64,000 nucleotides of DNA from Branchiostoma floridae (taxonomy: Eukaryota; Chordata; Leptocardii; Amphioxiformes; Branchiostomatidae). A program made the position numbers and the translations under genes. The stretch is taken from positions 8,822,553 to 8,886,552 of the forward strand of contig NC_049997.1 of the NCBI RefSeq assembly GCF_000003815.2, written 5' to 3'. Every line of letters starts with the position of its first letter. Within the stretch, counting starts at the first letter, position 1. Shown one piece after another: positions 6,888-61,230 of this stretch. Under the pieces are notes generated by a model. That model was not told where the DNA came from. It did no database searches and was given only the letters and a program-made list of their open reading frames with translations.

Positions 6888-9800
6888 ATGGATCCAGCGC
6901 TAGAAGTGCTTTATCCTACAGAACACCCCCTCATTGAGCACAGCACGGACACCTATTCCGTACAAAGTTTCAACATGACTTATTGCCTACACTTCTTCTC
7001 CCAATTCTACAACCACACCGCTTCTGAGACGTACGGCTTTCAGGATATCCTCTCACAGATCCCGCCGTATTGCCAGCAGCTTCTACTGGAGACCGCCGCC
7101 ATGGACAGCCACGTCATGCACCAGGACTTTGAGTTTACGGACACCGATCGGGCTTCGTCGGTCATCCGAACAGTCCTGGGTATAGTGTACTCTCTCGTCA
7201 TGGCTGTATGTGGGATCGGGAACCTGCTCCTCTTCGCAGTCATCTTCTGCTACAAGAAGAGCCGAAGCGCCACCAACATGTTGATCAGTAACCTCTGCTT
7301 TGCTGACTTCTTCGTGGCGGTGTTCTGCATCCCGCTGCAGCTGGATTACTACGTCATCAGGAACCAGGCCTGGGTGTGGGGAGGCTCCATGTGCAAGGTG
7401 GTGTCCTTCATCCGCATGATGTCACTCTACGTCTCTACCAACACGCTACTGGTCATCTCTATCGACAGGTCAGTTCTACAACTCGTCTGGTTTACTTGGT
7501 TAAACTCCTTAACTTTCACTTGTAAAGTGTAACAGCTGTTCTGTCAGGAGCAACAAGTCTCTACCAACACTCGAGTACTCTCCTGGTCATCTCTATCGAC
7601 AGGTCAGTTCAACAACTCGTCTGGTTTACTTGGTTAAACTCCAAGTAAACAATTTTCACTTGTAAGGTGTGGCAGCTGCTATCTTCCAAGAGTAACAAGT
7701 GTACTCTCCTGGTCATCTCTATCGGCAGGTCAGTTCTACAACAAAGTTTGGTTTGGTTTATTTGGTTTAACTTCTTAGCTGTCAGATGTAAAGTGAATAA
7801 AGTGGCAACTTTTGGCACGTTGTTCAATACTGCTAAAACAGCACTGTTGATCTCTGACCACCCGACCCGACTTCCCACATAAACGTTATAATTAACGTTT
7901 TGCGATTCTAATTGACAGTTGTGTATATATTGTTACTCTGGGCTGTTGATTGTTTGGTTTCTCTTATTTCTTTGTTTATGCTATTTCATTCATTCATTCA
8001 TTCATTCATTCACTCATTTATTCACCATATTATTTCATAGAGAAGAATTTCAGCTGCATATCCATCTATCCCATGCTTTATGACGGTGTGCTTTTCACAT
8101 TGGTAATCATCTGTCCCATGAACTGGGTTCTTCGGTCCTTTATAGTTGATTTAGTTGACATGATGAGGTTATCTGTTTGGCCTTGGCTACGTCGTGTTTG
8201 ATCATTCAGGATGATTACATTTGATCACGGTGCACGTATTTTACGTATGGTGGTGGTTTCTGCCTTTCAAAGGATTTCCACCCGGTGATTTTAATCTTGA
8301 TCATGGAGGAATAAGGACTTTATTGGTTTCCAGGGTTACCTTTATGTACACTTCAAAGTGTAAAGTATTAACTTATTAAGTAGCTTCAACAGACGCTTCC
8401 ATATCAAGGACGTTCTCCATTTTAGTGTACGCGTGTGCAACAGAATGCATAATGGGTAATAATTCAAAGGTGAAGGTGTCTGAGACTAGGGTACCATCCG
8501 GATAGTAGTTCGCTCCTATATTCGCTTCTGCTATCTCTGGAAACACAGAGAAGCGACTGTATATAGTGTATAATGAATGTCAGAGCTAGAAGCGACTGTA
8601 TATAGTATATAATGAACGTCGGAGCGAACTACTCTTTGGATGGTACCCAGGCTAGTCTGAGACATGAATAAAACACATCTGAATATCACAATACTAATCG
8701 ATGAAATTGTCGACATCAGAACTGTTTTTTTTTATAATTTAGATATTGTAATACGTAAAATTATTGCATAGAAGACGACAAAATACACAAAAAGTAAGAA
8801 AATTCGTTCTTTATTTCGTTGAGTATCTTTCGAGCCCCGCAATGCCACAAGCGTGCCTCACGTCCGGTGAGAGTGCACATTTAGTCTTTGGCGTCCATCT
8901 ATGTACTTAGAATCGTGAACCCTCTTATTGATAGATTTAAAAAAAAGACTTAATAGCTTATTAGCCCTGGCGATACCATCTCATCATCACTTATTCAAGT
9001 CCAATTGCGTTGAAAGTAATGATTCTTTAAAAGCAGTTGGGTGCACTGTTTTCGTTGTATTTGCATGAAGGCTTATGTATGCTGAAAGGTGCGTGTGAAA
9101 AATAGAAAAAAAATGAAAACAATGAAACGTGACTCCAGCACTAAACTAAGACAAGATTTTCGACCAGTTCTATAATATAGAAACTCGAAAGCCGTGCACA
9201 AATGCCACCTGTCTTTTAACCGAACAACCTGTCTCGTTTGTTTGAACGTTTTTTTTTATTCATAAGAAGCTCAAATCGGCCCGCAGGCCGCTTCTTATTG
9301 AGGTCATTTAGTTAGATCCCCGTTTCTGGCACAACCTTATTTGAAAATCCTACGACATCAAAGTAGGACTATGTGTTCCTACCACAGATGTAAACGCATT
9401 GTCTGTGACTTAGGGCGATGTATGGTATTTCAAACCTATTGATGTTACCCGTAACCTTTAAATACCCCTGGGGCCTTGTGTTCATAATTGATAAGAAGAA
9501 CTACAATTACATCATATACCATATTTCTGCTGTATTATACACCATTTAACACGACCGCCATCTTAGAAGTGTTCCAAAATCGACCCGGTAAACGTAAATA
9601 TCCAAGTTGGTTTTGCTGTTACCCAAAGGTAGATGCTGAGGTTGTTAGTAGACCCATCCATGCGTACATGTGGTTTGATTGGATTTTGATCAAACCTAGG
9701 TCGTTCTCAACGCAAGGGTCCCTGTGAAATGTCAATCGATGCCAAGGTATTAAAAGTTTACACTGCAAGGTCAATTTGGATTGTGATTGAAAAAAACAAC

Positions 9801-12800
9801 AACTAAGGATTCAATATTGTCTAAATGGCCCGAAGCCAAAAATTTACAGTTTTTGTTTCTGACAAATGCAGGACCCCGTCAAATGAAGTAGCGAAGTTGT
9901 TACAACAACAAAGTTCTTTTGAGTAATGCGTTACGTGTATGAACTTTCTTTGGGAAGGTTTCCAAGAATGTTTGCCATTACTTATGATGTATGCTTGGCT
10001 AAACTCCTAGAGGAAGATATTCTAGTTTGGCAGATAGGATTTTCTGAGTCCCAAGAGTTAATTGAGTTGGCAACTTCATTTCTACCTGCATCGGGTCTAC
10101 GATTGATCTTATCATCCTTGGCAACCGTCCCAGCAAAATCCGTACTTACAATGTTAAAACTGTGCCCCCAGAAAACAAAGGACGTGCACAGAAATGTAGT
10201 TTTGTTCTAGAAAACAATATTTATGTTTTACAGTATGCGTGTGAATGATTTGTTATCTATTTTTAGCCTAGACAACCCATTTCTAATAAGCAAAAGAATG
10301 ATCTAAAACTAATCAATTATGTCATACTTAAAGACTGCACCATTCCCATCATGCATTTCACATGCGTCTGCATACAGGGAAAATGTTCAGTTCAGTTCAG
10401 TTGGTTTTAAAATTTTTCATCATTAATCTGTAATCAATTCTGTACCGGTTCCATGAAAATGTAATATTTTCATTTTTTAGTTTTATTTCCTTTTTTTTAG
10501 AAAATAGGACTTTTTTAGCCTCCCGTTTAAATACTGGTTATAGGTAATATTGAGATATGCAGAAAATACTGGGGTTTTACCGTTCTTGTACGTGCATGCT
10601 TTAACCCTATCCAGACTGGGCTTTTGGGGCATTCCCTGGACTATCTCATTTTGATTTTTAATTATAAATGTTCAACTTAGATGTGTTACACATTAAAGAT
10701 ATATGAAAAGAAGTTTAGTTTAGCAAGAAAATCTTAAAATCCCATTGTTTAAACCAAAATTAGTGATTTTTTGTAAAATTTGCCTTTCAGAAACCCGTTA
10801 CCATGGCAACACGAAAAATTATAAACTTACTCTATTTTTTTTTCAAATTGCTGCCAACAATATTCTAGAAAAAGTCACCAAGTTTAGTTGTTCTAGCACA
10901 AGCCGTTCGGGAGCTATAGGACGTCAAAGTTGCCGCGGGCACTTTACCCCCCCCCCCCTCCCACCCCCGGCTGGATAGGGTTAACAAATTGAATCTAAAT
11001 ACAGACAAAAGTGCCAAGGCCCAATTTGTGATGTTGGAAGATATCATTTAATGACTTACAATCCGTAACAAGCTTAATTATATTTTGTGGCGATCCATGA
11101 AATTGAATAATAAATCCATGAAATTGAATAATAAATCAATCTTTACTGCTGGATATATTAGGTAAGTAATATTAGGTACAATATTTATTGAAACGTTTCA
11201 GACAGCATCCATCGTCTTTCATCAATTCAATGAATATACAGAGATTCTACTTTATGTAAACATGTTGGTTTTGCTTTGTCTCTTCTTCTTCTTCTCCAAT
11301 CAAATAAGGTCAATGACCTGGGCCAGACAAATGACCTGGACCAGACAGCTATCACCATGGTTACCAGTAAAGATGCAGACACCCAGTGGTGTTCGGTTAC
11401 ATCAAGTAGCAAATGGCTTAGCACAGAGCTAGAGGGGTTCAGGTCACTTGGAGTAAGAATAAACATAACAGTATTTAGAGTAAGACTACAACATGTAAAG
11501 GCAAACATTATATATTTTCTTGCAAATGTCACCTTTCTTGTTATATTTATTTCTTAAATATTTCATTTATGGATGTACAGATGCCTGGTGGTGAGAAGGC
11601 AGTTTAACGGTAAGAAGACGAGGCGGAGTGTTGCTGTGGTGTTGGCGGTGGTGTGGACAGTCTCAGCCCTTGTAGCTCTCCCCTCGGCCCTCTACGCCAA
11701 GGTACGGAATCTTCCCTTTGCTATCAACTCCTGGTCACGGATTAAGAACGTTATAGAAAAGAAAAATAACACGTGTAATGTATAATAAATTGTTAGTTGA
11801 ACTACTGGTAATATCTAAGAATTTAAAAGTACCATTCTACTTTGTGAATAACAATAATAAGCCAATCTAGCTATGCATGCTCTAAAGTGTTCATTGTGTT
11901 GATGACAGGAATACGTTGTCTCGTTCTTGCATAAAATTGTTTCTTTCCTACACAAAGAGGGAATGCGTCCCATTTCCAAAAAATTTTCCATAAAAGTGCA
12001 TAGTATATAAACGGTAAAAAGTTCTTTGCTGGTGTCCTTGTTTTAGATGAAGGTTAGACATCCAGGTAATAACATACGCCAAATAGCAATTACTCAAGCA
12101 TCGGATATAACATTCGTTGCCTGGCCTTTTCCAAAATCATAATCCCGTTGCTTGAGTAATTGCTATTTGGCGTGATGTTTATATCATCATTTGACATTTA
12201 CCTAGAATAATACGAATACGAATTTTTTTTTCATATATGAAGTCATTGCATTGTAATATACATTTGTAAATAGCAACCCAGTCCCCTATAGATTTTACTA
12301 TTACGAATAGCTCACACGATGTTTATTCTGATCGGGAAGTAATCAGAAGTTGACTTTTGCCTAGACGTACATCGAAGGTTACAGATATTGACTATTATAT
12401 TCTATTCCTACAATAGATCCACCCTCAGCAGAACGGAAACAACATGTTCTGTGGGCAGGCGTGGCCTGTGAGCCAGATGTTTGCCTACAAGGCGTACTTC
12501 ATGTTCCTGATGATGATGATTATTCTATTCTATCTCTACTTTAGATCCACCCTCAGCAGAACGGAAACAACATGTTCTGTGGGCAGGCGTGGCCGGTGAG
12601 CCAGATGTTCGCGTACAAGGCGTACTTCATGTTTCTGATGGTGATTACTCTATTCTATCTCTACTCTCGATCCACCCCCAGCAGAACGGAAACAACATGT
12701 TCTGTGGGCAGGCGTGGCCGGTGAGCCAGATGTTCGCGTACAAGGCGTACTTCATGTTCTTGATGATGATTATTCTATTCTATCTCTACTCTAGATCCAC

Positions 12801-14089
12801 CCTCAGCAGAACGGAAACAACATGTTCTGTGGGCAGGCGTGGCCTGTGAGCCAGATGTTCGCGTACAAGGCGTACTTCATGTTCCTGATGATGATTATTC
12901 TATTCTATCTCTACTCTAGATCCACCCCCAGCAGAACGGAAACAACATGTTCTGTGGGCAGGCGTGGCCAGTAAGCCAGGTTTTTGCCTACAAGGCGTAC
13001 TTCATGTTCCTGATAATGATTATTCTATTCTATCTCTACTCTAGATCCACCCTCAGCAGAACGGAAACAACATGTTCTGTGGGCAGGCGTGGCCGGTGAG
13101 CCAGATGTTCTCGTACAAGGCGTACTTCATGTTTCTGATGATGATTATTCTATTCTATCTCTACTCTAGATCCACCCTCAGCAGAACGGAAACAACATGT
13201 TCTGTGGGCAGGCGTGGCCGGTGAGCCAGATGTTCTCGTACAAGGCGTACTTCATGTTTCTGATGATGATTATTCTATTCTATCTCTACTCTAGATCCAC
13301 CCCCAGCAGAACGGAAACAACATGTTCTGTGGGCAGGCGTGGCCAGTAAGCCAGGTTTTTGCCTACAAGGCGTACTTCATGTTTCTGATGATGATTATTC
13401 TATTCTATCTCTACTCTAGATCCACCCTCAGCAGAACGGAAACAACATGTTCTGTGGGCAGGCGTGGCCTGTGAGCCAGATGTTCTCGTACAAGGCGTAC
13501 TTCATGTTCCTGATAATGATTATTCTATCATATCTCTACTCTAGAGCCACCCTCAGCAGAACGGAAACAACATGTTCTGTGGGCAGGCGTGGCCGGTGAG
13601 CCAGATGTTCGCGTACAAGGCGTACTTCACGTTCCTGATGATGATTATTCTATTCTATCTCTACTCTAGATCCACCCTCAGCAGAACGGAAACAACATGT
13701 TCTGTGGTCAGGCGTGGCCAGTGAGCCAGATGTTCGCGTACAAGGCGTACTTCACGTTCCTGATGATGATTATTCTATTCTATCTCTACTCTAGATCCAC
13801 CCTCAGCAGAACGGAAACAACATGTTCTGTGGTCAGGCGTGGCCAGTGAGCCAGATGTTCGCGTACAAGGCGTACTTCACGTTCCTGATGATGATTATTC
13901 TATTCTATCTCTACTCTAGATCCACCCTCAGCAGAACGGAAACAACATGTTCTGTGGTCAGGCGTGGCCGGTGAGCCAGATGTTCGCGTACAAGGCGTAC
14001 TTCATGTTCCTGATGGTGGCGGAGTACGCTGTACCGTCACTCTGCATGGCCTTGTGTCTGCTCTTCGTCTGGTGCAAGGTGCATACAAA

Positions 14090-14121
<32 letters not shown>

Positions 14122-15404: not shown

Positions 15405-15588
15405 GATCTGATCCGACCTGATCTCAGATTGATTTTTACTAAAAAAAATTGTACACAAACTACGGTTTTTGCCAGTATTACCTAGGATCAAGCTTCTGTT
15501 TTTGCTTTGATTAACCATCTTTCTCTAACCAGCCCACCAGCAAAATCGCAATTTGCTTTGATTAACCAATTAGTGATTTGTGAACAAA

Positions 15589-15594
15589 AATAAA
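15589..15594 (+). promoter_or_regulatory. Candidate polyadenylation signal of the receptor gene
   Basis: AATAAA lies 185 bp after the receptor stop codon, in the expected orientation. Confidence 0.5.
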
Positions 15595-15599
15595 ACGCC

Positions 15600-19731: not shown

Positions 19732-19817
19732 GCGTGGTAAAGTGCGGGGGTGTAAAACTATCATTATGTCTTACGTAACAGGATATGAGTCATAACTTGC
19801 CAAGCAACATACAAGAA

Positions 19818-24760: not shown

Positions 24761-27187
24761 ATGGCGGAACAAGAAGCCTCCTACCCTCCCCCTGCTTACC
24801 CGGACAAGGGTGGTGAACAGCCGCCACAGCAGGGGTATGGCTTCCAGCCGCAGCCGTACGGACAGTACCCTCCACAGCAGGGCCAGTACCCCCCTCAACA
24901 GGGCCAGTACCCCCCTCAAGGGCAGTACCCGCAAGGGGGGTTTGTGCAGCAAGGGGCTTACGTGCAGATGGGGACTACTGTCGGGGTAAGAACGAGTCCG
25001 ATTTCGTGTTTAACATAAGTATATACTTAACAAAGAAGGAAAATGAGATCTATAGATAAATTAAACGGGAAATAATATCTATAAGTGGAAGTGACCCACA
25101 GTCTAGGGAGAGGGGGTTTGCGACTATGACATAGAAGAAGAACAAGAAGAACAATTTTTATTAAAGCTGTCAAAACCAAGATTTCCTTGTTCTTCTGTTC
25201 TTTCCTTGTATATAGTAGTCTCGAACAGTCTCCTTGGGTTGCAGAAAGTTTGTGAAATTGGAGATGACCCAATGGAGAAACTTAAACTTAAGCCATATTT
25301 CGAGTGCAGTTCTCGGCCTACTTGACCATGGTGAATGAATGAATGCCTTCACCTTTGAATCGCTACCCATTATGCGTACAGTAAAACGGTGCAGGTCCTT
25401 GAAATCGAAGCGTCTGTTGACGCTACTTAAGTTAGTAGTTTACACTTTGAAGTGCACATAAAGGTATCCCTGAAAGCCAATAATGTCCTTATTCCTCCGT
25501 GATTTAAAGTCACCGAGTGGAAATCCTTTGAAAGACGTAAACCACCACCTTATGTAAGACACATACACAGTGATCAAGTGTTATCATCCTGAATAATCAA
25601 ACACGACGTATCCAAGGCCAAATAACCTCATCATGTCAGCTAGATCAGCGTCAATGGCTGAGTAATTATAACCCTGTAATGGGATTGATGATTACAACTG
25701 TGAAAAATACACTGTTAAACGCATGGGCTAGATGAGCATGCAATTACAGTTCTCCTCTATATGTCTCATTGTGAATAAGAATGAATGAAAGAATGAATGA
25801 ATGAATGAATGAATGAATTATGCTCTCACAGAGTGGAGGAATAAAAGAAGGAAAAGAAAAAAATGGATGAATGAATGAATGAATGAATGAATGAATGAAT
25901 GAATGAATGAATGAGCTCATTGCAAGTGGCGTTACTACAATGAGAACTGACAATACAAATTTAAGACATGTTTGGGAGTTTCTAAAAGCAGATTTTTTTT
26001 TCTTTTCTTTACTATACTGATTTTGTAGCAGCCGGCCGTGATGATGGTAGGGAGCAGGGCTAATGACTACATGGGCCTCTCCATCTTCACTCTGCTCTGC
26101 TGCTGCCTACCTCTCGGCATCGCGGCCATCGTCAGCTCCTGTGAGGTAAGGAACCCTCAAACTAAAGGCCCCCTCTCACTTGACGTGCGGCACGCTTGCG
26201 GCATTGCTGCGTTCGGAAGATGCTCAACGAATTCAGAGATAAAGAACGAATTTTCTTACTTGTTGTGTATTCTGTGGTCTTCTATGTCACACTTTTACGT
26301 ATTGCGCAATATCTGAATTATAACAAATCGGAGAAAATAACAAAACAGTACCGCAGTGAACGAACGCAGCAATGCCGCAAGCGTGCCGCACGTCAAGTGA
26401 GAGGGGGCCTTTACCATGGAGGAGGGGGGCAGGTCATCACACCGCTGCCACCAGTTAAAAAAAAAAACATTCCACTGGGCGGCGACCTCGTTGAGACCCC
26501 AAATTTTAATCGATCGTTCGACGAATTCCTAAACTGTTATGTGGTCTTTTAGTCGAATCTTTACCTATCATGAACTCAGGGGCTGCATAAATCCAATTAA
26601 GATCGCAGTGAGCCTTGGGACATGTACCAATAGGGAGTGGGCAGGTCGTCACACCGCTGCCACCATTGTAATGGTATTGGTGTGGGCCTGTGTAAATATG
26701 GGCTTTACAGTGTTGAAGCATAATGTGTTTTAAAACAGGGGTCGATACTGACAGACCTTGTGGGCGATTGAGGGTTAAGCGTTTTCAATTAGACATCTAG
26801 ACACGTATATCTAAATAAACAGAAAACTCTGTTTTTTTTACGCTGCATTGTTTAATTTAGAACAATCTAGCAATGCACAGCAAAAAACGGTTTCTTTGAA
26901 CTTAAAGGATTATGCCATTCACGGCTATCAAACTTTACAGACCATATGTATTCAGTATTTGTCCAATCTGTTTGCTTGTTTGTTTTGTTTAATCGATTGA
27001 TGATTTGTTTGTTTATCAGACACAGGACGCCAACAACGCTGGAGACCTGAACAGAGCTCAGGCAGCATCGAACCGAGCCAAAATCCTCAACTACTGGGCT
27101 CTGGGCGTGGGGATCTTCTTCTGGGTCATCGGGGTCATTCTTATCATCCTGTACTTCACCCTGTTTATCTCCGCGTTTTGGGGTTAA
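24761..27187 (+). CDS. Dispanin/CD225-family membrane protein 1 (IFITM/PRRT-like)
   Basis: Three coding exons, 24761-24985, 26029-26145 and 27020-27187, are joined by phase-0 GT-AG introns into 169 residues. The start MAEQEAS was chosen because the frame upstream runs into a SINE. Residues 9-13 are PPPAY, a PPxY motif that in this superfamily binds WW domains of NEDD4-type ubiquitin ligases. Residues 33-59 are tandem GQYPPQQ repeats. Exon 2 gives the intramembrane/TM1 part with NDYMGLSIFTLLCCCLPLGI; the CCC at 99-101 is a likely palmitoylation site by family analogy. Exon 3 holds the conserved loop (DLNRAQAASNRAKILN) and TM2 (about 140-164). The family includes antiviral IFITMs and synaptic PRRT proteins; the exact role here is unknown. 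A candidate polyadenylation signal is at 27526. Confidence 0.9.
25336..25640 (-). mobile_element. Interspersed repeat, inverted copy of 8130-8477
   Basis: Read on the minus strand it follows the 8130-8477 repeat block by block, for example CAAAGGTGAAGG beside an ATTC microsatellite and CGCATAATGGGTA. It lies in intron 1 of dispanin gene 1. Confidence 0.6.
25785..25916. repeat. (GAAT)n microsatellite, two blocks
   Basis: The blocks 25785-25818 and 25863-25914 are nearly pure GAAT units, separated by 44 bp of purine-rich DNA. Confidence 0.9.
26166..26410. mobile_element. MITE family A with long terminal inverted repeats, in a dispanin intron
   Basis: The left end AGGCCCCCTCTCACTTGACG is followed by TGCGGCACGCTTGCGGCATT and GCTGCGTTCG; the right end is the near-perfect complement, about 48 bp. 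The flanks are TAA (26163-26165) and TTA (26411-26413), suggesting a 3-bp TWA-type target. Its left end starts 20 bp after the exon 2 donor of dispanin gene 1. Confidence 0.85.
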
Positions 27188-47252: not shown

Positions 47253-50200
47253 ATGCTGTCACCATGGCAACACGGATACATACGGGACGGCATCATGGTG
47301 CACTTCCACCATGGGAACCACTCCGATCCCCTCAAGCCGATCGGAAACGACAGCCTGGACGTGGCGTGTAAGGGGTGTTTCGAGCGGTTCGACACCACAG
47401 CGTGCGTCCGCAGCGGTCTCATGACCCTGTTTGTGACGGTGACAGGGCTACTTTGTGCTGCAAAGGTATTTTTGATATATTTTTCCTATATTTATGTTGG
47501 GCATCAGCGTGCAAAAATACCCACTTGCACACTTGCANNNNNNNNNNNNNNNNNNNNNNNNNNNNNNNNNNNNNNNNNNNNNNNNNNNNNNNNNNNNNNN
47601 NNNNNNNNNNNNNNNNNNNNNNNNNNNNNNNNNNNNNNNNNNNNNNNNNNNNNNNNNNNNNNNNNNNNNNNNNNNNNNNNNNNNNNNNNNNNNNNNNNNN
47701 NNNNNNNNNNNNNNNNNNNNNNNNNNNNNNNNNNNNNNNNNNNNNNNNNNNNNNNNNNNNNNNNNNNNNNNNNNNNNNNNNNNNNNNNNNNNNNNNNNNN
47801 NNNNNNNNNNNNNNNNNNNNNNNNNNNNNNNNNNNNNNNNNNNNNNNNNNNNNNNNNNNNNNNNNNNNNNNNNNNNNNNNNNNNNNNNNNNNNNNNNNNN
47901 NNNNNNNNNNNNNNNNNNNNNNNNNNNNNNNNNNNNNNNNNNNNNNNNNNNNNNNNNNNNNNNNNNNNNNNNNNNNNNNNNNNNNNNNNNNNNNNNNNNN
48001 NNAATTTTGTAAATCGGTCAATATTTGGCGAAAATATTGACCAAAATATAACCTAAAAATGCCCAATTTTAAGCGTATCGGGGGACCATTCAGTTTTTAC
48101 TAATTCTTAAACCTGTGATCTAACAGAAAAATTGTAGTTGGTACAGTGTAGTTAGAAACTACTTGCTTATGATATGCGGTCATGTGACTACTAGTGATTT
48201 TATGCTTTTTTTTAAGGATATGACCATTTTTTGGTTCCATAGGGACTATTTTTCCATTTTACCCACATGTTGACAGATTCCAATGTTATTTTAACTGGAT
48301 ATATCTGTAGTCTGTAGCAGCTAATTGTTTGGTAATATTGGTGTTGTCTTTGTATGTAAAAGTAAGATATTATGTGTGAATAAGTTCAGAAGTAGAATAA
48401 GATCAGTAGCACTTTCTTATGACATATTATTTACAAGCAAAGTCCAGGATGTCATTTTCCGAAAAAAATCTGTAGCGTCCGTACCCCCTTTAATTTCTGT
48501 ACTAAGTAAATCCCACAAGCTTGTGATTATGACAGTTTAGAGGTCTCTATTACCACATACTAGAACACCCTTTAAATCATTGCTGTCCTGAAAACTCTGC
48601 CTAGTATAGCACCGTAAACATCAAAATGTAGCGTCCGTACCCCCTGTAGCGTCCGTACCCCCACCTGTAGCGTCCGTACCCCCATTTGAAGCTTTTTAGC
48701 AAAATGCTGTTAAAATTGCTGTCCAACTGCTACAATTCTGATTCAATACATTAATTACAGTTCTTACAGATATGATTGGTTAACTTTTTTCTCTAAAAAT
48801 GTGACTTTTCAATGAATTTGAGCTGCATTTTTCTGAGATTTCCTCCACAAATCCACATTTGCTACACCCCCTCAGACTTCATAAATGGTTCATTCCAAAG
48901 CAGCCAAAGATGGATGTGAGATGATAGTTGATATTCCCCCATGAGTTTAGCTGATATAAGAACACCAGTTTGGTAGATCTACATTATACAAGGCATAAAT
49001 TAAACATAGTATTACATAGTATGTAATGTGTAGCGTCCGTACCCCCTGCACTACTGTTTCTCTTGTCCAAACTAATATTTAGCATGTATTCAAGATAGAT
49101 GCAAGTATACATTGCTGGTTTGATGGCATGGGAAGCACTGTGTTATATTCTTTTATGTAAACCATCACTTCTTTATCACAGATTCTGTAAAATCTTCTAT
49201 CAGTAGGCCTGTTATCAAAAAGTAGAGTACAGATCCAACTGGGTGGAATCTCAACTGGCATACTTATATTTTCATTTTCTTTGTTAAACTGCTGCAGTAG
49301 CATTAATGGATGCTTCAATTAATAAATAGTTAATGATTATTAGAAAATGGACATGTTTAGTGGGCTAATTCCATTGTTCACTACCAGTCTTTACTATAAT
49401 TGTGTAGCGTCCGTACCCCCCTTGAAATGTTCATTAATGGTCATATGAAAGATTCTATGTTATGTTATACACTATATCTGCTGTAATTTTATGTAGAAGC
49501 CCAATAAGGATAGATAACCACCAAAATTTAGCTACTATGGTGCCTGGATTAAGAATTATAGTATTTGATCTTTGCTTCAAGCCAAAATACCCGCATATCA
49601 TTATAGCTGCTTTAGTAACAGATGACCAGAAAATGACCTAACATAGTCATACTGCAACTTGAGTTGATTTTCTAGCATAGCAAATGCTAATTATACAAGA
49701 AGATAAGGATAAAACACCCATTTTCTGTTCTAATGTTGAATATACATTATGCTGTAGTTCCAGTTATTCTACAGTTGTAGCGTCCGTACCCCCTTAGTGA
49801 TCCATTTATAAAAGCCCATGTACCGAAGTTATAAAAGCTCGTTGTGCGGAGATCCTTTAGGATAGTATGCCCAAGGTGTGCACCTTTGAACTGCTAACAA
49901 CAAAAAAAGAATAAAATGGAGTTGAATTTTCACCCCTAGTGACCCCCTTTTGGTACATTAGATTGTGAAGTAGCCGAATGTTTACACAAACCAATGCTAT
50001 CTAATATATTCTAAGATTAATAATAAAACCTACTTTGTGCTGCCAAGGTACAGCTACAGCCTCCCAATGTTTATAGTTGTATATTGTTCATATTTGTTGT
50101 AGAATGTAGTAGATATACTTTCAATGTTCACACAAAGCCAGTATGTATACTAAGAGCAAAACCAACTTTGTGCTCAAGCAAGGTATTGTTGCTACAGATT

Positions 50201-53200
50201 CCCTCATTTGTTAACTTGAATGTCCGTTATTTTGTTTTGTAGAAGTAGAAGATGTCTTTTTATAGAAGATGATTTTGAATTGATATATTAGATATCTGCA
50301 AAAACAATATGGCTTTCTCTCATTTTGCACTTGAAGCAAAATTTTTCCGAATTTTAGAACCTCACAAGGCTTGATTTATTGTAGGTCTCAAGTATATTTA
50401 ACTTAAGTCAATCTCTCGTATTAACTTGCAAGTTTAAACTTTTGGAAATGTGCATCTTCTTGTATAATTAATTATACTGTGAATAGGAAAAATATATCTG
50501 TAGATTGTAGAAATATTCATGTAAGATTTAAAAAGTTAAAACTGATGCAGTTTGATTATATTGTGAGAAGCTATGAATTCTTGCTGAAATGATATTATGA
50601 TTTACCATTCCTATTTTACATTGTAGTTTCTTACCAATATAGAATGATTTAGTCTTTACTAAAACTTTTATCTGAATTGTTTATTTATTTGTTTGTTTGT
50701 TGTGCAGTTGTGCCGTCTACACCAGAAGAACCAGAGAACAGTACACCAGTACATCATCTTCTACACAGCACTGGTGGAGTGTGTCTTATGGTGGGTACTG
50801 TTACCATGGAGATGGAACAAACTATTGAGGGTTGTCAGGAGGGGGTTGTTCAGTAAAAAAATATCACCCTCATCTAAGACTGTTTTCAATTGTTTTATAA
50901 AAGGGATTGGCTTTTTTTTTTAAGATGATTGTAGGCCACATTTAGCATTGTTTTTTTGATGACCAATATGTTTATATGACTATATAGGAATTATGACACA
51001 TTGCAATGTTTATGTTTCATTTAGTACATTCCTACAAACTAAGAAATTAGATGTGCTTCAGAGATAAAAGAGCTTAATAATAATATTCTTTCTGTAACAC
51101 AAATGTGAATATTTTTACAATGTTTACAAGAAGAAAAAATTCTATATCCGGCGTTAATGAAGATTGTACCATGAGATATTCTTGTACAACTAGTAACAAA
51201 CAAATACAATTCAATCTCTACAACTGGACAAATAATAGAGATTTACTTCCTATTGTTTTAAGTGACATCCATCACTCTTCTTCAATGTCACTACAATATT
51301 GTTTACAGTCAAACCTGTATTAGGGGCCACCTCTACAGATGGGCCACCTGTCCATAGTGGCCACTTTTTGTCGGTCCCTTGGGTATTTTATCTACAAGTT
51401 GCCACCTCTATACAGAGGCCACCTGTCTATAGTGGCCAAATTTGTCCAGTCCCTTGAGTGGCCGCTATAGACAGGTTTGACTGTACATGGAAGTCTATCC
51501 TTCATAAACATACTAGTAACAAAGTTCCTGTGTTGTTCTATTTCAGTGCAATCCATTGGATCTATGCCAAGTACACCCAGATCGAGTTTGGGCTGCAGTA
51601 TCTAAAGTTGCTCCAGTTCCTTGTGGTCTGCCATGTTTACTGTTGTCTCGCTGCCAGGGTCACAAGAAGAGAACAACTCTCCTCAAGGTACAAGAATATG
51701 TCGTATTATGCAATAATGACAGAAACAGATAGATGGTGTTGCAAGCTGCATTTCATGTATTATAAGGACCATGAATGTTAGCTGTGTAATAAAATATTGT
51801 CAATACTGTACAGTCAAAGCTAGCCTGAGTATCAGCCTGGGTAGTTTACCGGGGCTCCCATACTCCTCTTGGTGGGGGAGGAGTATGGGAGCCTCAGGGA
51901 CTCAGGCTAAGTCAAACCTGTACAAGGACCTCATTTTCACAAGAACCACTACTTTTTATATTTCAGCCATACATAGTATGGTGAAATATATTGTTATATT
52001 TCAGCCATACATAGTATGGTGAAATATATTGTATTCGTAATGTTTCTTTCTTTCTTTCTTTCTTCTTTCTCCTGTCAAATCTTCAAAGTGATTCATCTCC
52101 GCTTTTCCTGGACCGAATGACCTGAAATTTGGCACAGGGGTAGAATGGGCCAATACCTTGATGCTTTTTTCTCAGTTTTTTCATATCTGCCTCTNNNNNN
52201 NNNNNNNNNNNNNNNNNNNNNNNNNNNNNNNNNNNNNNNNNNNNNNNNNNNNNNNNNNNNNNNNNNNNNNNNNNNNNNNNNNNNNNNNNNNNNNAGACCA
52301 AAACTGTATATTTTGGCCCCTGTACCCTGGTATTACAACCAAATGAGCTGAAATTTGACAGAGATCTGCCTTGATAATGCCCCCATATAAATTCGATAAC
52401 ACTTTTGGTGTACAGTACAACAAAATGCTTATTTTTGCGATTTTTGACCAATTTTTGACCAAAAAAGGACACTTTTGGCCCCTGTACCCTGGTATTACAA
52501 CCAAATGAGCTGAAATTTGACAGAGATGTGCCTTGATAATGCCCTCATATAAATTCAATAACACTTTTGGTGTACAGTACAACAAAATGCTTATTTTTGC
52601 GATTTTTTTTACCAATTTTTGACCAAAAAAGGACACTTTTGGCTCCTGTACCTTGGTATTGCAACCGAATGAGCTGAAATTTGACACAGATGTGCCTTGA
52701 TAATCCCTTCATATAAATTCAATAACACTTTTGGTGTACAGTGCAACAAAATGCTTATTTTTGCGATTTTTGGCCAATTTTTTACCAAAAAAGGACACTT
52801 TTGGCTCCTGTACCCTGGTATTACAATTAAATGACCTGAAATTTGGTATAGATAGGCATTAGATACTTAGTAACAAGATTCAAGTAAATTTTTTGACATA
52901 AACAACTTTAAAATGATTAATTTTGGCACTTTTCTGAGGGGAAATTTGTTTTCTTTTGGCCTCCTGACGTGACCTTCCGTGACCCCGCACAGAGCCACAC
53001 CTGTGCGCGTCAGCCGGAGAGTTAATTGAATCAAAGACCTAGCCAATCAGCGAAGAGGAGGCCAAAGGCTAATTAATATTCATAAGCGGGGCCTCATGAT
53101 CCCGTATATAGCAGTGTTCCCGCCAGGGGGAGCGAAGCCCGCCTAAGGCTCTCGCATTTCAGAAGGCTTTATATTGTATCAGTTCTTAGGGGCATATCTA

Positions 53201-56200
53201 TGATAATCGCAGCAGTCACTTAACTCTCTCTTAACTTCTCTTCAGGAGTTTAGCGTAAGTNNNNNNNNNNNNNNNNNNNNNNNNNNNNNNNNNNNNNNNN
53301 NNNNNNNNNNNNNNNNNNNNNNNNNNNNNNNNNNNNNNNNNNNNNNNNNNNNNNNNNNNNTAGCGATGGTTTTTTCGCTGTGCTGTTAGCTCCGTGCGAC
53401 TGTTGTTGACGGTCTTATAACGGTATATTTTGCACCCCTGTACCCTGGTATGAGTAACATTTGGTATAGATAGGCATAAGATAGTTGGTAAAATGATCCC
53501 AAGTAAAATTTTTGGCTTAAAGTACTGTAAAAGGCTTAATTACAGCACTTTTTTTAGGGGAAATTGGTTTTCTTTCGTTCTCCATGCCATGATCTTTCGG
53601 ACGTTCACCCCACAGAGCCGACATCTGCACCTGCGTCTAGCCGGCAGGAAGAGTTAATTCAATTAATGGTTCAGCCAATCAGCGAAGAGGAAAGCGAAGG
53701 CTAATTAATATTCATAAGCGGGACCACACAATACGTTAACTTGAAGACTCAGGCCGTACAGACTTCTCGCCAGGATTTTTTCAAAGCGTCGGACAGGGGT
53801 CCGGGGGCCGCCGAATGTCCCTGGCGGGGTCCAGGGGCAGGGCCACTGTGGGGGGGGGGGGGGGGACCCAGGTGGGCGAAGCCCCCCCAGAAGCTCTTGC
53901 ATTTTAGACTATTGAGAAGGCTTCTTTTATCAGTTTTTTTAGGGCCATATCTACGATAATCGTAGCAGTCACTTACTTCTCTTCAGCAGTTTGACTTTAA
54001 AATATTTCGGGTCAAAGCTTCAAAGACAACTAAAACCTCATAAACAACAAACTTTACTTATCTCAACAGTATACAAAAATATTGTACGGGTTGCCATCCT
54101 TAGTTGAAGCGCTTATTTATAGCGCTAGTATCTTCGTTGCGCCGTTAGCCGCCGTGCGACTTTTGTTGACGGTCTGATAGCCCTGCGTCGCCGCCTCGCT
54201 GATATTCCCACGGACATGTTTCAAGAAAAATGCCTGGCAAAAAACGCTGTTCTGCGTCAAATTCTATTCTATAAAACATGTGGGACTCAGTGTTACAGTC
54301 TAAATATTTTGTAGAAGCACCGCTGTGGGAAAGAAGGTCCAAGCAATGTAATACATCACGTAGCATGAAGCTCGCTGTCAACTGGCTCACGACTGTTTGA
54401 AACTCTAAGTCTAATCAACAGCCGTGTTTGATTGATAGCCGGCGGCCCTTTGGTCAAGTCGGCGAAAGGTGCGTTAGTTAGACAGTTTGCGTTTAGTTTT
54501 GATACGTAATTATAAGTTAGACAGTGGTGAAAATGATTATTTTCTCATCAATATTTCTCTTCAGAATTATTTGAACTTAATTGTACATCTAAACAATTGG
54601 CTTACCTGTGCAATGTTTATATGATTAATGATCAGTGTACTGAAATCATGTGTAACGTATGGCTCCTAGTCAATAGATCAGCATTTTCTCTATAGTGATC
54701 ACCTGTCTATAGTGGCCACATTTCTATCACTGGACTGGAACTTGCGAAAACTGCTGTATTTTCTCCAGAGCAAATGTATGTGTTCCTAGTGCTGTTGTTG
54801 TTTGACATAAACTTTGAACATTTAAATTGTAAGTAACTTTAAACTGCCAGAGTTTCAGCCCAATAAAACACTCTCAGCGCCAGGGTATGAACAGACTGAC
54901 CAGACAGACGAAAATAAATCCTCGAACAAGGTTCAATCGTATCTTCCGGGTCTGGCAGGAAGTTGTTAAACTAAAATAAGAATAGGCTCGATGGCTGATT
55001 GCATACAAAGTAAAACAGTTTAACAGTTTTACAGCTTGAAGAAAACAAACGCTCCTACAGTACCTGCACCTGCTTGATAATTATTAAATCGTATGCCCTA
55101 CTTGAATAAAAAAAGTTCACTGCAATAATAAATGTACCCACATCACAAGGAGCTTATACTTTTTTAAACTTACACCTAGTTATCGTACTGAAAATTGTTA
55201 ATGACATTACATGAAGTCATTCAACAATTTTCAGTCATGATGAAAATTTTCTGAATGGAAGGTGTGATTATTGTCATTTTCTGAAAAATAGAAGCAAGCT
55301 CTGTTTTTACCTGGAATCAATTCACAATAGCAGTCCACTTTGGGGGATAATGTACTGTTAAGAGGATGTTCCATTTTTGCGCAGGGGTGATTTGGAACAG
55401 TCCAATGTTGCGTGGGAAGGGGTATGGCTGAAATATGCTGTATTTGCTCTTAAGCAAATGTCGGCCTTTCTAGTTAGTGGTCTTTTGTGGCCACTTGTCC
55501 ACATTGAATAGATTTTTTTCTAGTTGTCCTCCGAGTTTTGTGCAGCATTTATTACCAAATTATAATTCATTGGCAATTGTGAAAAAAGAAATCTTTCATC
55601 ACAGGAAATTGCAGGACTTTTGTTTATTCATGATTTCATTGTTGAAACCCTTTACAAAAAGACCATGTATACAAGTATCTAATTTTCCTTCCCCTTTATG
55701 TTCCTGCAGAGTTGTGGGTCCCCTGTTTGTGCTGGCCTTTATCTACTTCACAGTTATCGCAGTGATGGGCATGTTGGATGCCAGGTCCTCCTGGGTGGAC
55801 TGTAGAGGTAAGGGAAACATCTGATTGTCTGTGTTACACCCCCTTTCCGCTAGTGGCTGTGACTGCTGAGCAATATCTTTTAATAGGTTGCTCAAATTGT
55901 GTCGCATAGATAAAGAACAAATTCTTTACTGCTAGTGCTACAAGCCTCAACTTCAAGAGAGATATCGTGCCATTGATATTAGTGGAAATCCTCATAGGTA
56001 GCTTTGTCTTTGTTCAGTTGCTGCATTGCCATGTGCCTGTGAAGCTGGTGTGTTATGCCAAAAGGTGTTTGTACCAGTTGTATAGATGCAGATAAAATAG
56101 CTGGTGTGTTGTGCCAAACAGCTGTGTATATATATATATTAAGTGTTATACAGGCTATGTTATGCCAAGGGGAGGCTATACCAGCTATATAGATAGAGAT

Positions 56201-59200
56201 ACAGAAATTGGTGTGTGCCACCAAAGGGCAGTTATAGTTTATACTTTTACACAATGTGCCAGCTATATAGATATACAATCTGATATTAATAATAGAACTT
56301 TTCTAGTTCCCTATAAATCTTAAACATGTTATTTGTTACTGTGGAAATGTTTAATGGATATGGACTAATGTGTTTTCCCTCCTGTTCCAGAACCAGAATG
56401 GATCCTGCTGTCCTCCATGGAGTTCGTTCTTGTGCAGTTGTTTCTCGTCTCAGGGATTTACATCACCAAAAAACTCAACAAGATCAGCACACAGGCCGAG
56501 ACCAGGAGGGAGCAAAAACGGGACCTGTGGGGGTGAGGAAACTCTTACTGTAGATCTTCTAATGTTTGCGATAGTTTCATTGTTCCTTCTTTTTCAGCAA
56601 GCTCTTAAAAATGATTAAAAAATTGCTAAGTAATACATGTGTATGGCAATTGTATAGCACTACAATGAACTTGCAACAGTACACTGCAAAATTTCTTTTA
56701 TCCTTATATTGTGAAATAAAAGCACCATGAAAGTGAATGCATCTACAGTGGTTGGAAAATGTAATTGATTTACCTGTTGTCAACATAAATTTCAGTCAAC
56801 AATGTAGAAAATGAAGAGGACGTTTTGCAGTGGCAAATATATATAATATGGTATCATATTGCAGTTCTTCATTTTATTAGAAAAGAACTGCAATATGATA
56901 CCACTTTGCAGTAGTATAACCTATTCAAAATAGTTTCATTTTTATTTAACTTCCTCTTCATCCCATTGTATACAGTCACATGCTTTTCTTGATTCTGAAA
57001 TGCATTGTTAAAAATGTGAAATTCACTGCTATAATGTTTATCATTTTAGAGAGATCTACCACTTGTGAAATTGATAGTTTGTTACTCATAAAACTTTCAC
57101 AAATTGGTTACATTTTTCTGTTGAGGGTCATTGAAGAGACAGGAATTTTCCTTGACATTACATGCATTTGAATGTTTAACTAACAGCCAGTCTGATTTGA
57201 ATTCCAGGTTGATTGGTGTTTTTGAGCTGTCTGCTACCGTTACACTGGTTTATGACATCAACATGTTAATATGTAAGTATATGTATATGTATACACCAGT
57301 GGATATGATATTTTGTGATACCAGTGGATGTGATATTTTCTTAGGAATTTCATACAAATATAGTTGGAAACAGTATGGAAAATATTTCGACACCATCTTC
57401 AATATTATCAACAAAGTAGACTTGCACATAAATCTCCACTATGTTGTGAATGATTAACCCTCATCCGACCGTATGGGGTCATTTTTGACCCCAGGCGTAT
57501 ATTTTAATCTGCCACAGCAACATTTTTCATTAGAGAAAAAATTCCTTCCATGAATTTGTTTGTATACATGTCTTACAACATCTACCAATTTTTCGCTGAG
57601 TTTTGCCCATTATTGTATAAGCTATACTTGAAAGTTTGTGTCTTGTTCGGTGGGGTCAAAAATGACCCCAGCCAATTATGAATCATTAATTACATAAATA
57701 TCAAGATATTTCAATAAAATAAAAGGCATTCCTCATTATTGCTATTGCAGCAACAGGTTATAGTTGCTTCGATGAGTAAACACCGAATATTTTGAAAGAA
57801 ATTTAGTATTTTAGTGTAAAACACAGTTTTTCGACATTCTGCATAAATTATGATAATACGCACTAATTACCTATGCTAATGAAAGTGAAAATGTTTCTAA
57901 TTAATTAAAAAACAATATTTGGACAGAATGTGCAGAAGGAACCTACAAGAAAGATCTTTGCGGGAAAAAAGACAAGAGTTATTGTATGTATGTGTTTAGA
58001 TGGCGGAATATGGTGCATGATTAAGTAATAAATTCGTTACTTTTCACAAATATTCTATTTTTTCTTGTAATAATTCTTATCAGCATTATTGCATCACCAC
58101 AATTATTGTTTATAAATTGATAAAACAAAACATTGTTTAAGTAAGTTTAGTATGGTAGATTTTCAGAGCAAATGTGGGTTTTCCTCATTTTCTGCATAAA
58201 TTATGATAATGAGTAATAACTACTGACACCAAAACTTGTCAAAATATTTTTCATAGGTTAGTGAAACAGAAAATACATAGAAATGACAAAATAAGCCAGC
58301 AGAAATATGTCTATGAGCAAAACAAAATGGGGTCAAAAATGACCCCATACGGTCAGATTCGTCATAAAAATGTAACGGTCGGATGAGGGTTAAGTATGAA
58401 AAACATTGCCACATATGTGGCTTCAAGTACTGGAATTATCAACACAGGATGGTGGATGTGTGTAGGTATTCACTTTTTTATAAAACTATCATAGAGAAGA
58501 ACTTATTGCCACCAATGCAAGTACAGTTACTGTAAAAGATCCTCACTGGATAGCTTTGAACAGCTAGGTGTGCGGAGGTTAGGTGTGACATGTTGTTCAG
58601 TGTGATATGACCACTTGCTACCACACTGTATCCAAAGCTGGTGTGTAGTGCAGAAAAGTGGTTACACAAGCTAGTAATTATATAGATACAGATTAAGAAA
58701 GGTACAGAATGATTTAACTCTCTTTGTTTGTTCAATGACATGCGTCTCATTTTTGCCTCCTATTTTAGGGTCAGATGAAGACAACGGCTGCAGTGGTGTC
58801 TTCGTAAGTATCTTCTTCTTTTGTGCTGTATGCTTGTGACCTTGAATAATTATAAATTGCAGTGTTAGGGAATAGAGTAAAGAAGAATAGAAGAGAAGAG
58901 AAGAGAATAGATCTGAATGAAATGAAATGAAAGAAAATAGAATGGATTAGAATAGAAGAAACAAAATTGAAGTAAAATGTAATAGAATATTTTTTGGGTA
59001 AGACTTAGAGATCTTACTTTTTCAAGAAATATTAGCCATAGTACTTATATGTATATCATAGTTTCAGATGCACACCCAGTGGTTCTACTCCCTGATCTAT
59101 GCCCTGTTGTATGTCTGTGATTCTAACCTGTGTGTTATATATCCCCAGCTGCACACCCAGTGGTTCTACTCCCTGATCTATGCCCTGTTGTATGTCTGTG

Positions 59201-61230
59201 ATTCTAACCTGTGTGTTATATATCCCCAGCTGCACACCCAGTGGTTCTACTCCCTGATCTATGCCCTGTTGTATGTCTGTGATTATAACCTGTGTGTTAT
59301 ATATCCCCAGCTGCACACCCAGTGGTTCTACTCCCTGATCTATGCCCTGTTGTATGTCTGTGATTATAACCTGTGTGTTATATATCCCCAGCTGCACACC
59401 CAGTGGTTCTACTCCCTGATCTATGCCCTGTTGTATGTCTGTGATTATAACCTGTGTGTTATACTAGTATATCCCCAGCTGCACACCCAGTGGTTCTACT
59501 CCCTGATCTACGCCCTGTTGTATGTCTGTGATTATAACCTGTGTGTTATATATCCCCAGCTGCACACCCAGTGGTTCTACTCCCTGATCTATGCCCTGTT
59601 GGAGCTGTTGAAGTTCATGTTGCCCATCTGGACCATGCTGTGTGTGTTCCACCCTGTAGAGGCAGCTTCTACAGACTTCGACTCCAGCTGGGCAGAGGAC
59701 GGGGTCAGTTTATGTTATATGTTACTTTGTACAAAGGGATTAGTGAGGTTTTGTTGTTTATGTTTGCATATTTTGCCCTGTATGTAACTGCGAACGCATG
59801 CAAATCATGGTGGTGAAATTTCAGTATTCCTTATTGTATACTACATTTGTACTTTCAATGAAGAGAGTGAAGTTTTGTTGTGGCTTGCCTTGTATGTATG
59901 TTTGTATTTATTTGTCTTTGTTTGTGTTTGTGCATGTGTTTCTGCCTTTTTTGTATATCACATTTTTACTTTCCATGAAGGAAGTGACGTATTGTTTTGG
60001 CTTGCCTGTGTGTTTGTGTACAATGTATGTGGCTTCTACCGTTTTTGTTGCTCAAGGACTGGCAAGGACATACATTTTGGATCTGATGCCTTCGTGATGA
60101 CATACAATGAGACTTCATGTATTTCACAATTAAAGCCTAAGTCATTGAACAATTGATGTAAAAAAATGTTTTTAACATCATTATACTTCTTTGTGCTAGA
60201 GTGACTGGAGATGAAGTTCAGAGTTGACAGAATAAGTCATTGATTTGAAACTGTTTCTGTTTCTCCACACACCTACAGACGTACACGTCAGTGTTCAGTC
60301 CTCAGCAAGGAAACCGTTTAGAACACATTGTACATGTAAATGTCATACTTCTTCATGCCAGGGTGACAGGAAGTGAAGTTCAGAGTTTACAGAATAAGTA
60401 ATTAATCTGAACATGTTTCTGTTTTCCTGAACACCCACAGACGTACACGTCGGTGTTCAGTCCGCAGCGAGGAAGCCGTTACCGCCGGCTGCAGAACCCG
60501 ACAAGCGTCCAGGCATCATAAACATTATATTTCTGTATGCTGGGTGACAGGAAGTGAAGTTCAGAGTTGCCACAATAAACTCATTCATTTTTCTGTTTTT
60601 CCCCAAACCCACAGACATACATTTGGTGTTCAGTCAATTACATTTTCTGTATTGAAAGTGTTTTTGTTTCCCCACACACCTTTGTGCTAGAGTGACAGGT
60701 GAAGTTCAAAGTTGCCAGGTGAAGTTCAAATTTGCCAGAATAAGTAATTAATTCGTCTGTTTTCCCCCACACGTACAGACATACACATCGGTGTTCAGCC
60801 CGCAGCGAGGAAACTGTTTAGACCACATCGTTCATGTACACATCATACTTTTTCGTGACAGGAAGTGAAGTTCAGAGTTGCCACAATAAACCATTCATTT
60901 TTCTGTTTTCCCCCAAACGCACAGACGTACACATCGGTGTTCAGTCCGCAGCGAGAAAACTGTTAAGACCACATCGTTCATGTACACATCATACTTTTTC
61001 GTGACAGGAAGTGAAGTTCAGAGTTTCCTGAATGTGTGATTTATCATTCATCCTTGTTTCAAATGTTTTCCCTACAGACGTACACGTCGGTGTTCAGCCC
61101 ACAGCGAGGAAACCGTTACCGCCGGCTGCAGAACCCCACAAGCGTCCAGGCGACCCTCCACAGCAGCCGCTCCTTCCCCGTGCTGCCCCCCATCCACGAG
61201 GAGGAAACAAGCCCGCGACCTTCTGTCTAA
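47253..61230 (+). CDS. Seven-transmembrane protein of unrecognised family (9 coding exons)
   Basis: Coding exons 47253-47465, 50708-50790, 51547-51687, 55710-55807, 56391-56532, 57208-57272, 58769-58803, 59560-59703 and 61078-61230 join with consistent phases (0,2,2,1,2,1,0,0) into about 357 residues. Exon 8 and the last exon were taken from the final copy of their arrays. The N-terminus has sequons NHS and NDS plus several cysteines. Seven apolar stretches follow: LMTLFVTVTGLLC; YIIFYTALVECVLCAIHW; LLQFLVVCHVYCCLAA; PLFVLAFIYFTVIAVMGM; LSSMEFVLVQLFLVSGIYI; IGVFELSATVTLVYDINMLI; and WFYSLIYALL to WTMLCVF. A basic loop (KLNKISTQAETRREQKR) separates TM5 and TM6. The C-tail is Arg/Ser/Pro-rich. 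I do not recognise the family; a receptor role is possible but not shown. The start at 47253 follows a minimal ATG-TAA upstream frame at 47203. A candidate polyadenylation signal is at 62110. Confidence 0.75.
47538..48002. other. Assembly gap (465 N)
   Basis: A run of N in intron 1 of the 7TM coding region. Apparent open frames crossing it are meaningless. Confidence 1.
48471..49793 (+). repeat. Seven exact copies of an 18-mer in one intron
   Basis: TGTAGCGTCCGTACCCCC occurs without a mismatch at 48471, 48627, 48645, 48666, 49029, 49403 and 49776, always on the plus strand. Copies 2 and 3 abut directly. The sequence between copies shows no visible homology, so this is not a simple tandem repeat. 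The last three intervals are 363, 374 and 373 bp. All lie in intron 1 of the coding part of the 7TM gene, after the large assembly gap. Confidence 0.95.
51304..51485. mobile_element. Tc1/mariner (Tigger-like) MITE
   Basis: TACAGTCAAACCTGT at the left and ACAGGTTTGACTGTA at the right are exact inverted repeats with TA at both borders, fitting a TA target. The interior repeats GGCCACCTCTA and CCTGTCTATAGTGGCCA. Decayed relatives of the interior appear near 54700 (CACCTGTCTATAGTGGCCAC). Confidence 0.8.
51821..51909. mobile_element. Foldback element nested in an older element end
   Basis: TAGCCTGAGTATCAGCCTGG at the left pairs loosely with CTCAGGGACTCAGGCTA at the right; an inner pair around GGCTCCCATACTCCTC is perfect. 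AGTCAAA on both sides looks like the target duplication. The broken site reads TACAGTCAAA-CCTGTACAAGG, that is, an end of a Tigger-like element as at 51304. Confidence 0.7.
51955..52031. repeat. Direct duplication of a small palindrome
   Basis: TATTTCAGCCATACATAGTA followed by TGGTGAAATATATTG is nearly self-complementary and occurs twice in a row. A CTTT microsatellite follows at about 52044-52063. Confidence 0.75.
52195..52294. other. Assembly gap (100 N)
   Basis: A fixed-size gap at the edge of the 162-bp tandem repeat, so the repeat copy number is uncertain. Confidence 1.
52319..52900. repeat. Four-copy tandem repeat, about 162-bp unit
   Basis: Units begin CCTGTACCCTGGTATTACAA at 52319, 52481, 52645 and 52807 and share ATGAGCTGAAATTTGACA, TTTTGGTGTACAGTACAAC and a TTTTTGACCAATTTTTGACC block. 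Another partial unit probably lies in the gap at 52195-52294, because 52083-52194 has the same style (GACCTGAAATTTGGCACAGG). Open frames on the minus strand here are repeat artefacts. Confidence 0.88.
52807..54183. repeat. Large tandem duplication in intron 3 of the 7TM gene
   Basis: Two diverged copies, about 52807-53423 and 53434-54183, run in the same order: the CCTGTACCCTGGTAT block, ATAGATAGGCAT, AGCCAATCAGCGAAGAGGA, CTAATTAATATTCATAAGCG, CATATCTA-GATAATCG with CAGCAGTCACTTA, and GTGCGACT-TTGTTGACGGTCT. The first copy holds the 53261-53360 gap. The blocks suggest an interspersed element inserted or duplicated side by side; its class is unknown. Confidence 0.75.
53261..53360. other. Assembly gap (100 N)
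   Basis: A fixed-size gap within the first copy of the large tandem duplication. Confidence 1.
56030..56280. mobile_element. Decayed LINE-like 3' tail with repeated phrase
   Basis: CCATGTGCCTGTGAAGCTGG with TGTGTTATGCC resembles the 3' flank of the LINE fragment at 3140. A phrase of the form TGTTATGCCAAAAGG...ACCAGYTATATAGAT then repeats three or four times loosely. Weakly supported. Confidence 0.4.
56849..56903. repeat. Perfect 21-bp inverted repeat
   Basis: The arm 56849-56869 (TGGTATCATATTGCAGTTCT plus one T) is matched exactly by its complement at 56883-56903 over a 13-bp AT loop. It lies in intron 5 of the 7TM gene and is transcribed with it if the gene is active. Confidence 0.75.
57454..58393. 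mobile_element. piggyBac-like non-autonomous element (P2)
   Basis: TTAA at 57454-57457 and 58390-58393 flanks exact inverted ends CCCTCATCCGACCGT and ACGGTCGGATGAGGG. The palindrome TGGGGTCA-N4-TGACCCCA occurs at 57474, 57651 and 58328. Internal phrases (GCATAAATTATGATAAT, twice; GAAAAAATTCCTTCC) match the first element, showing common descent. No transposase. It sits in intron 6 of the 7TM gene. Confidence 0.9.
58550..58720. mobile_element. Possible LINE 3' tail
   Basis: AGCTGGTGTGTAGTGCAGAA, GTGGTTACACAAGCTAG and TATATAGATACAGATTAAGA resemble the LINE-like tail phrases near 3140 and 56040. No coding part remains. Confidence 0.35.
59068..59600 (+). repeat. 7-copy in-frame array of exon 8 5' part with splice acceptor
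   Basis: An 81-bp unit carries an acceptor (TATATCCCCAG) and the first 42 bp of exon 8 (HTQWFYSLIYALL). Copies start at 59068, 59149, 59230, 59311, 59392, 59479 and 59560. The fifth interval is 87 bp because of 6 extra bases (TACTAG in a shifted reading), so every interval is a multiple of three. The whole array is one open frame without stops that continues to 59787. Only the last copy goes on into the rest of exon 8 and a donor at 59704. The first copy reads ATG instead of CTG. Confidence 0.95.
60279..61110 (+). repeat. 6-copy array of the last exon's 5' part with acceptors
   Basis: Copies starting at 60279, 60441, 60615, 60779, 60925 and 61078 each follow an acceptor (ACCTACAG, ACCCACAG and similar) and encode TYTSVFSPQ-type starts, except the decayed third. 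Spacing is 146-174 bp and includes shared intron sequence (GACAGGAAGTGAAGTTCAGA). Each copy ends in its own stop. From 60279 the tail goes on to SLQNK; from 60441 it follows the main form (RYRRLQNPTSVQ) and stops two residues later. The copies could therefore serve as alternative terminal exons. Confidence 0.92.

Follow-up and report, generated by a model that had tools for sequence, protein, structure and literature searches.

Tandem repeats that overlie exon-intron borders are known in amphioxus as "mirages" and were described in Adh3 and in the globin genes BflGb6 and BflGb9 (PMC3087553). The BflGb6 array lies on the acceptor side, with units of 150-160 bp present in 6 and 3 copies in two haplotypes, and the BflGb9 array lies on the donor side, with a unit of 157 bp; trace data back one of these two globin arrays (PMC3087553). 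RT-PCR of globins, together with data on Adh3, indicates that mirages in the globin genes seem not to disrupt regular splicing, and the same authors put mirages forward as a source of introns (PMC3087553). Imperfect repeats of 60 and 108 bp also extend over splice sites of lancelet PGBD5, with Adh and troponin C named as further cases; the PGBD5 array withstood resequencing, and the copy numbers of arrays vary between assemblies (PMC3902484). Outside the lancelets, potato RdRp gained an intron via a tandem duplication that spans a border, with the new donor arising from formerly exonic sequence (PMC4974935). Searches of open-licence paper listings returned no genome-wide survey of mirages.

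A first-pass annotation of the window (the whole stretch analyzed here, 64 kb in length) had reported four border arrays with 3, 13, 7, and 6 copies in two genes, and TRF, self-BLAST, and alignments of the copies confirmed them (Table 1). The published globin and Adh3 mirages are donor- or acceptor-border repeats that have units of 10-160 bp, retain splice signals in many of the units, and evolve in concert (PMC3087553), and the arrays of the window are like them, concerted evolution having been tested on array 2 only, where mosaic copies were found. They are unlike the published globin and Adh3 examples in that four arrays occur in two genes within 64 kb, with up to 13 copies, and one is open in frame. 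In PGBD5, a different lancelet gene, splice sites are likewise covered by imperfect repeats (PMC3902484). Given this match to the mirages already published for the Adh, troponin C, globin, and PGBD5 genes, the four arrays join a known class: they are mirage minisatellites, and previously undescribed examples of them.

Table 1. Window coordinates of the border arrays and of the genes that carry them
Feature	Position	Strand	Description	Basis
Array 1	7431..7795	+	Three donor-side copies, gene 1	Self-BLAST, alignments
Array 2	12389..14015	+	13 acceptor-side copies, gene 1	TRF, unit alignment
Array 3	59065..59601	+	Seven acceptor-side copies, gene 2	TRF, ORF 59062-59787
Array 4	60179..61151	+	Six acceptor-side copies, unit 146-174 bp, gene 2	Self-BLAST, alignments
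Gene 1	6888..15404	+	Class A GPCR; exons 6888-7468, 11581-11701, 13920-14078, 14856-15404	
Gene 2	47253..61230	+	Hydrophobic membrane protein, 9 exons, 357 aa	Open spliced model, stop at 61230

The two neighboring genes hold all four border arrays. The spliced model of gene 1 encodes 469 aa without an internal stop, and its product covers the entire Pfam 7tm_1 profile (positions 1-260 of 260; E = 8.5e-47). Its top relatives in the PDB are peptide receptors, namely, the prolactin-releasing peptide receptor (E = 2.4e-35) followed by NPY2R; we presume that it may be a receptor of the prokineticin type. The product of gene 2 gave no Pfam match at 0.001 and no PDB sequence match at an E value of 1, and its score against MARVEL (E = 0.0086) falls below that family's cut-off. 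The working models splice at the copy that adjoins the body of the exon, i.e., the first donor of array 1 and the last acceptor of arrays 2, 3, and 4, and this choice yields intact proteins in both genes. A small gene elsewhere in the window (24761-26148) has a proline/glutamine-rich start and matches CD225, the interferon-induced transmembrane type (Pfam E = 3.9e-10, scored on a protein joined by eye); starts resembling its own, by eye only, lie at 34800 (+) and near 30000 (-).

The repeat unit spans an exon-intron border in 4/4 arrays and duplicates a whole modeled exon in 0/4, with borders taken from our own gene models, as the first-pass annotation had proposed. The copies of array 1 place the last exon base at 7468 (the functional donor in the model), 7602, and 7728; TRF at a score of 50 misses this array, which self-BLAST recovers over 7431-7795 at 75.9% identity (E = 1.3e-43). 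The unit of array 2 is about 125 bp, comprising about 28 nt of intron and about 96 nt of exon, and its exon starts run from 12417 to 13920, the last of which is the modeled acceptor, at spacings of 125 bp (11 times) and 128 bp (once). The acceptors of array 3 (59068 to 59560, the last again being the modeled one) are spaced by 81, 81, 81, 81, 87, and 81 bp, and the reading frame is open across the whole array. Array 4 is more degenerate: its acceptor-like copies lie at 60279, 60441, 60615, 60779, 60925, and 61078 (spacings of 162, 174, 164, 146, and 153 bp; modeled acceptor, 61078), the copy at 60615 is degenerate with a broken frame, and TRF recovers only pieces of the array (60183-60480 and 60719-61025). 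The acceptor AG is retained in 12 of the 13 copies of array 2 (the third has lost it), 7/7 copies of array 3, and 6/6 copies of array 4.

The arrays are unrelated to one another in sequence, since five of the six pairs gave no match at an E value of 1 and the sixth gave only weak ones (two best matches of 12 bases each; E = 0.063). For the intron-derived segment of the unit in array 3, no origin was found in the window, and the flank of the first copy had no significant match. Gene 2 contains other repeats within its introns. A degenerate repeat with a period of 117 (1.8 copies; 59834-60048) is intronic only and lies between arrays 3 and 4, and a 162-bp unit repeated 3.3 times (52311-52845) lies off the exon borders and adjoins an N gap. 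At 57441-58406, an intronic segment of about 0.9 kb has inverted repeats at its ends (31-nt arms, 97% complementary, and 32-nt arms, 84% complementary) and resembles a small mobile element without coding sequence. Seven + strand copies of the 18-base motif TGTAGCGTCCGTACCCCC were found, all of them within a single intron of this gene (48471-49793) and three of them clustered.

Local duplications in the window are ordinary in number and unusual in placement. Self-BLAST identified 11 local-duplication loci, compared with 8.97 per 64 kb (26 loci, 16 of them with an offset up to 250) in a blind sample of 20 evenly spaced 10-kb stretches from contigs C2 and C19 (185,497 bases; one stretch all N). 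Four of the 11 window loci cross one of 22 borders, although these borders come from our own models of two genes and the window was chosen since the arrays had been noticed there. When one unit of each locus was placed at random, 0.48 crossings were expected (P = 0.00075); for the 8 loci with an offset up to 200, 0.25 were expected and four were reached in 0 of 20,000 trials. The array density of the blind stretches likewise predicts 0.25 for 22 borders (Poisson P = 1.3e-4). One blind stretch (L011, 1246-3572) contains a row of EGF-like exons that look alike by eye, which is whole-exon repetition, unlike the border arrays.

An excess of this kind, over both the random placements and the blind stretches, could mean that duplications arise more commonly at exon borders than elsewhere through a border-specific mutational process. 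We regard such a process as rather unlikely, though deserving more weight than the other alternatives discussed below, because arrays that are homogenized by exchange with coding sequence may persist and stay detectable for longer, and the excess shrinks to P = 0.038 if whole arrays, rather than single units, are placed at random. The DNA of the units is also unremarkable in its folding: one unit per array was folded, and no unusual hairpin was found (z of 0.09, -0.62, 0.06, and -1.02).

The copies of array 2 appear to have exchanged sequence after the array was founded, as suggested by the failure of 28 of 66 informative site pairs in the four-gamete test and by distances between copies that are independent of their spacing (Spearman 0.10, P = 0.37). 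Units 6 and 7 are identical over 124 bases, as are units 11 and 12. Divergence of the first copy from the others is 22.6% over the 28 intronic bases and 4.9% over the 96 exonic bases, and copies 2 to 12 vary more in their exonic than in their intronic portion (5.4% versus 3.2%). In array 4, the exon part is less diverged than the intron part in 10/10 pairs (copy 60615 excluded); one of the three pairs of array 1 has 2/26 exonic versus 2/54 intronic differences. A paralogue as the source of the copies is unsupported for array 2, where the genome matches of the exon edge, among the best candidates scored, are its own 13 copies, and for the two globin arrays described below, whose copies are mutually closest among nine loci.

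Differences among the copies are mainly silent. Read in the coding-exon frame, 18 of 30 differences in the window are synonymous, against 7.2 expected (P = 3e-5); weighting CpG transitions 10-fold raises the expectation to 9.3 (P = 0.001), and a stronger transition bias in addition raises it to 10.2 (P = 0.003). These tests leave out copy 60615 of array 4 (broken frame). By array, the synonymous fractions are 2/3, 9/15, 1/2, and 6/10 for arrays 1 to 4, with only two changes available in array 3. Restricted to the non-functional copies, 15/27 differences are synonymous against 6.3 expected (P = 0.0003; P = 0.006 with CpG weighting). The two shifted forward frames of the same copies hold no silent excess (5/24 and 5/24), and the reverse-strand control frames gave 6/27, 10/24 (P = 0.04), and 6/24.

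The same excess is present in globin genes of this genome. A globin search of the assembly (513,431,437 bases) returned nine exon matches, and two loci have border arrays: L031, with four acceptor-side copies (spacings of 154, 158, and 158), and L027, with two donor-side copies 157 apart, the second near an N gap. We take these to be the published BflGb6 and BflGb9 mirage loci, as matched by side and unit length rather than by published sequence. Synonymous changes account for 8/10 and 9/11 of their differences, and the total of 17/21 (5.4 expected) was reached in 0 of 400,000 draws; at L031, 66 exonic bases were compared, and the exon part past them, which carries a one-base deletion in the first copy, was excluded. 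Shifted frames gave 4/21 and 3/21, with no excess. Two copies of one globin array differ by nine silent changes in 90 nt. The remaining local repeats at globin loci (L023, L026, and L030) are intronic or far apart.

A dead, drifting copy compared with a constrained coding copy should yield at most about 40% silent differences, a ceiling that we calculated separately for each array and that gives a less extreme result than flat fractions of 0.31 and 0.36. The pooled count of 35/51 silent differences exceeds it (P = 2.6e-5), as do the globins alone (P = 0.0002) and the window by itself (P = 0.015), whereas array 4 by itself fails to do so (P = 0.23). A single death of the spare copies followed by drift is therefore a poor fit. 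The silent excess is clear in array 2 and both globin arrays, with few changes in arrays 1, 3, and 4. It goes unmentioned in the mirage literature examined, and neither the main text of PMC3087553 nor that of PMC3902484 contains the word "synonymous".

The effect of choosing a different border varies among the arrays. In array 2, use of the first upstream acceptor would end the protein at 294 aa, and use of any of the other eleven would end it at 293 aa. All acceptors of array 3 are in frame (357, 384, 413, 440, 467, 494, and 521 aa), and the five upstream copies of array 4 give 320 to 347 aa with different tails, the copy at 60441 having a longer exon stretch that terminates in VQAS and a stop. 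With the proximal copy, the exon is 159 nt long in array 2 and 144 nt in array 3, compared with 225 to 1662 nt for the others. Each of the 13 copies of array 2 also has a GTGAGC or GTAAGC donor 51 nt past its acceptor, which scores 6.4-10.7 bits by a donor matrix, compared with 3.1-10.9 bits for 11 modeled donors; the counterpart in array 3 is weak (2.5 bits in 6/7 copies, the last one lacking a GT).

Such signals raise the prospect that some copies are expressed, which would itself produce a silent excess. Array 2 would then contribute in-frame exons of 51 nt, i.e., 17 codons in phase 0, each followed by an intron of 74 nt (77 nt once), and each copy of array 3 would add 27 residues (29 once); the +51 donor occurs in 13/13 copies, all seven acceptors of array 3 are in frame, and a protein that includes all copies has no internal stop. 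There is a precedent in potato RdRp, where such an arrangement led to intron gain: the duplication crosses an acceptor, the donor was formerly exonic, and the new intron was detected (PMC4974935). The +51 donor of array 2 might come to act in a similar way. Against this reading, copy 3 of array 2 lacks the AG, and splitting the changes at the +51 donor does not discriminate (nucleotides 1-51 have one nonsynonymous and four synonymous changes, compared with five and five in 52-96; Fisher P = 0.58). The second copy of L027 is strongly silent-biased, yet inspection by eye reveals no evident acceptor in it, and a stop is encountered on reading past the first donor, so splicing hardly explains the constraint there. 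The Adh3 and globin mirages were, moreover, reported to be neutral for splicing (PMC3087553). We thus consider it improbable that spare copies are constrained through use, with array 2 inserting a variable count of in-frame 17-residue microexons into a loop of the receptor and array 3 lengthening its protein in steps of 27 residues. Even less probable is an assembly artefact in which separate haplotypes or reads were placed in tandem. Because alleles differ mainly silently, an artefact would fit the silent excess too, and the nearness of the second L027 copy to an N gap and the variation of array copy numbers across published assemblies (PMC3902484) point in the same direction. But 13 copies exceed two haplotypes, the copies of array 2 are mosaic, and none of the window's four N gaps lies inside an array. 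Both globin arrays had been reported before, one with trace data (PMC3087553), and the PGBD5 array held under resequencing (PMC3902484), although the globin reports are not fully independent in that the assembly may share old reads with them.

For the silent excess, we accordingly rank renewal from diverse coding alleles above use in mRNA, and use in mRNA above a tandem arrangement of haplotypes created during assembly. Our preferred reading, with a probability of roughly 0.7, is that these are mirage minisatellites whose copies are constantly renewed from coding alleles and whose exon-proximal border is used. When a tandem duplication begins or ends within an exon and has its second breakpoint in the neighboring intron, one intact border would still adjoin the body of the exon. 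The gene would therefore keep working and the event would be tolerated, in line with the intact model proteins. Unequal exchange and conversion would alter the copy number and shuffle variants, as the mosaics observed in array 2 suggest. Under repeated renewal from the coding border, drawing on the many alleles of a very variable species, each spare copy would have been derived recently from a coding allele and would show mainly silent differences. The spliceosome would pick the copy adjacent to the exon body, since no other copy gives an ordinary exon length (as judged from arrays 2 and 3). The silent divergence of nine changes in 90 nt is high for alleles, and renewal from alleles may therefore be insufficient.

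The first-pass annotation had further proposed that one process, such as replication slippage or template switching at exon borders, acted repeatedly in this genome. Its recurrence finds support in the mirages in print and the two globin arrays analyzed here, but slippage or template switching is not established as its cause, and the evidence from array 2 points to later exchange. That border arrays are a general source of splice-site variation in amphioxus is doubtful, because globin mirages seemingly spare regular splicing (PMC3087553).

Border arrays have been proposed as a source of new introns and have been thought of as dead repeats. If spare copies differ mainly silently, they would be either constantly renewed from coding alleles or used. 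Renewal would mean that the arrays record coding variation and offer mutations a route into exons; if, instead, the copies are used, a minisatellite would set the length of a protein.
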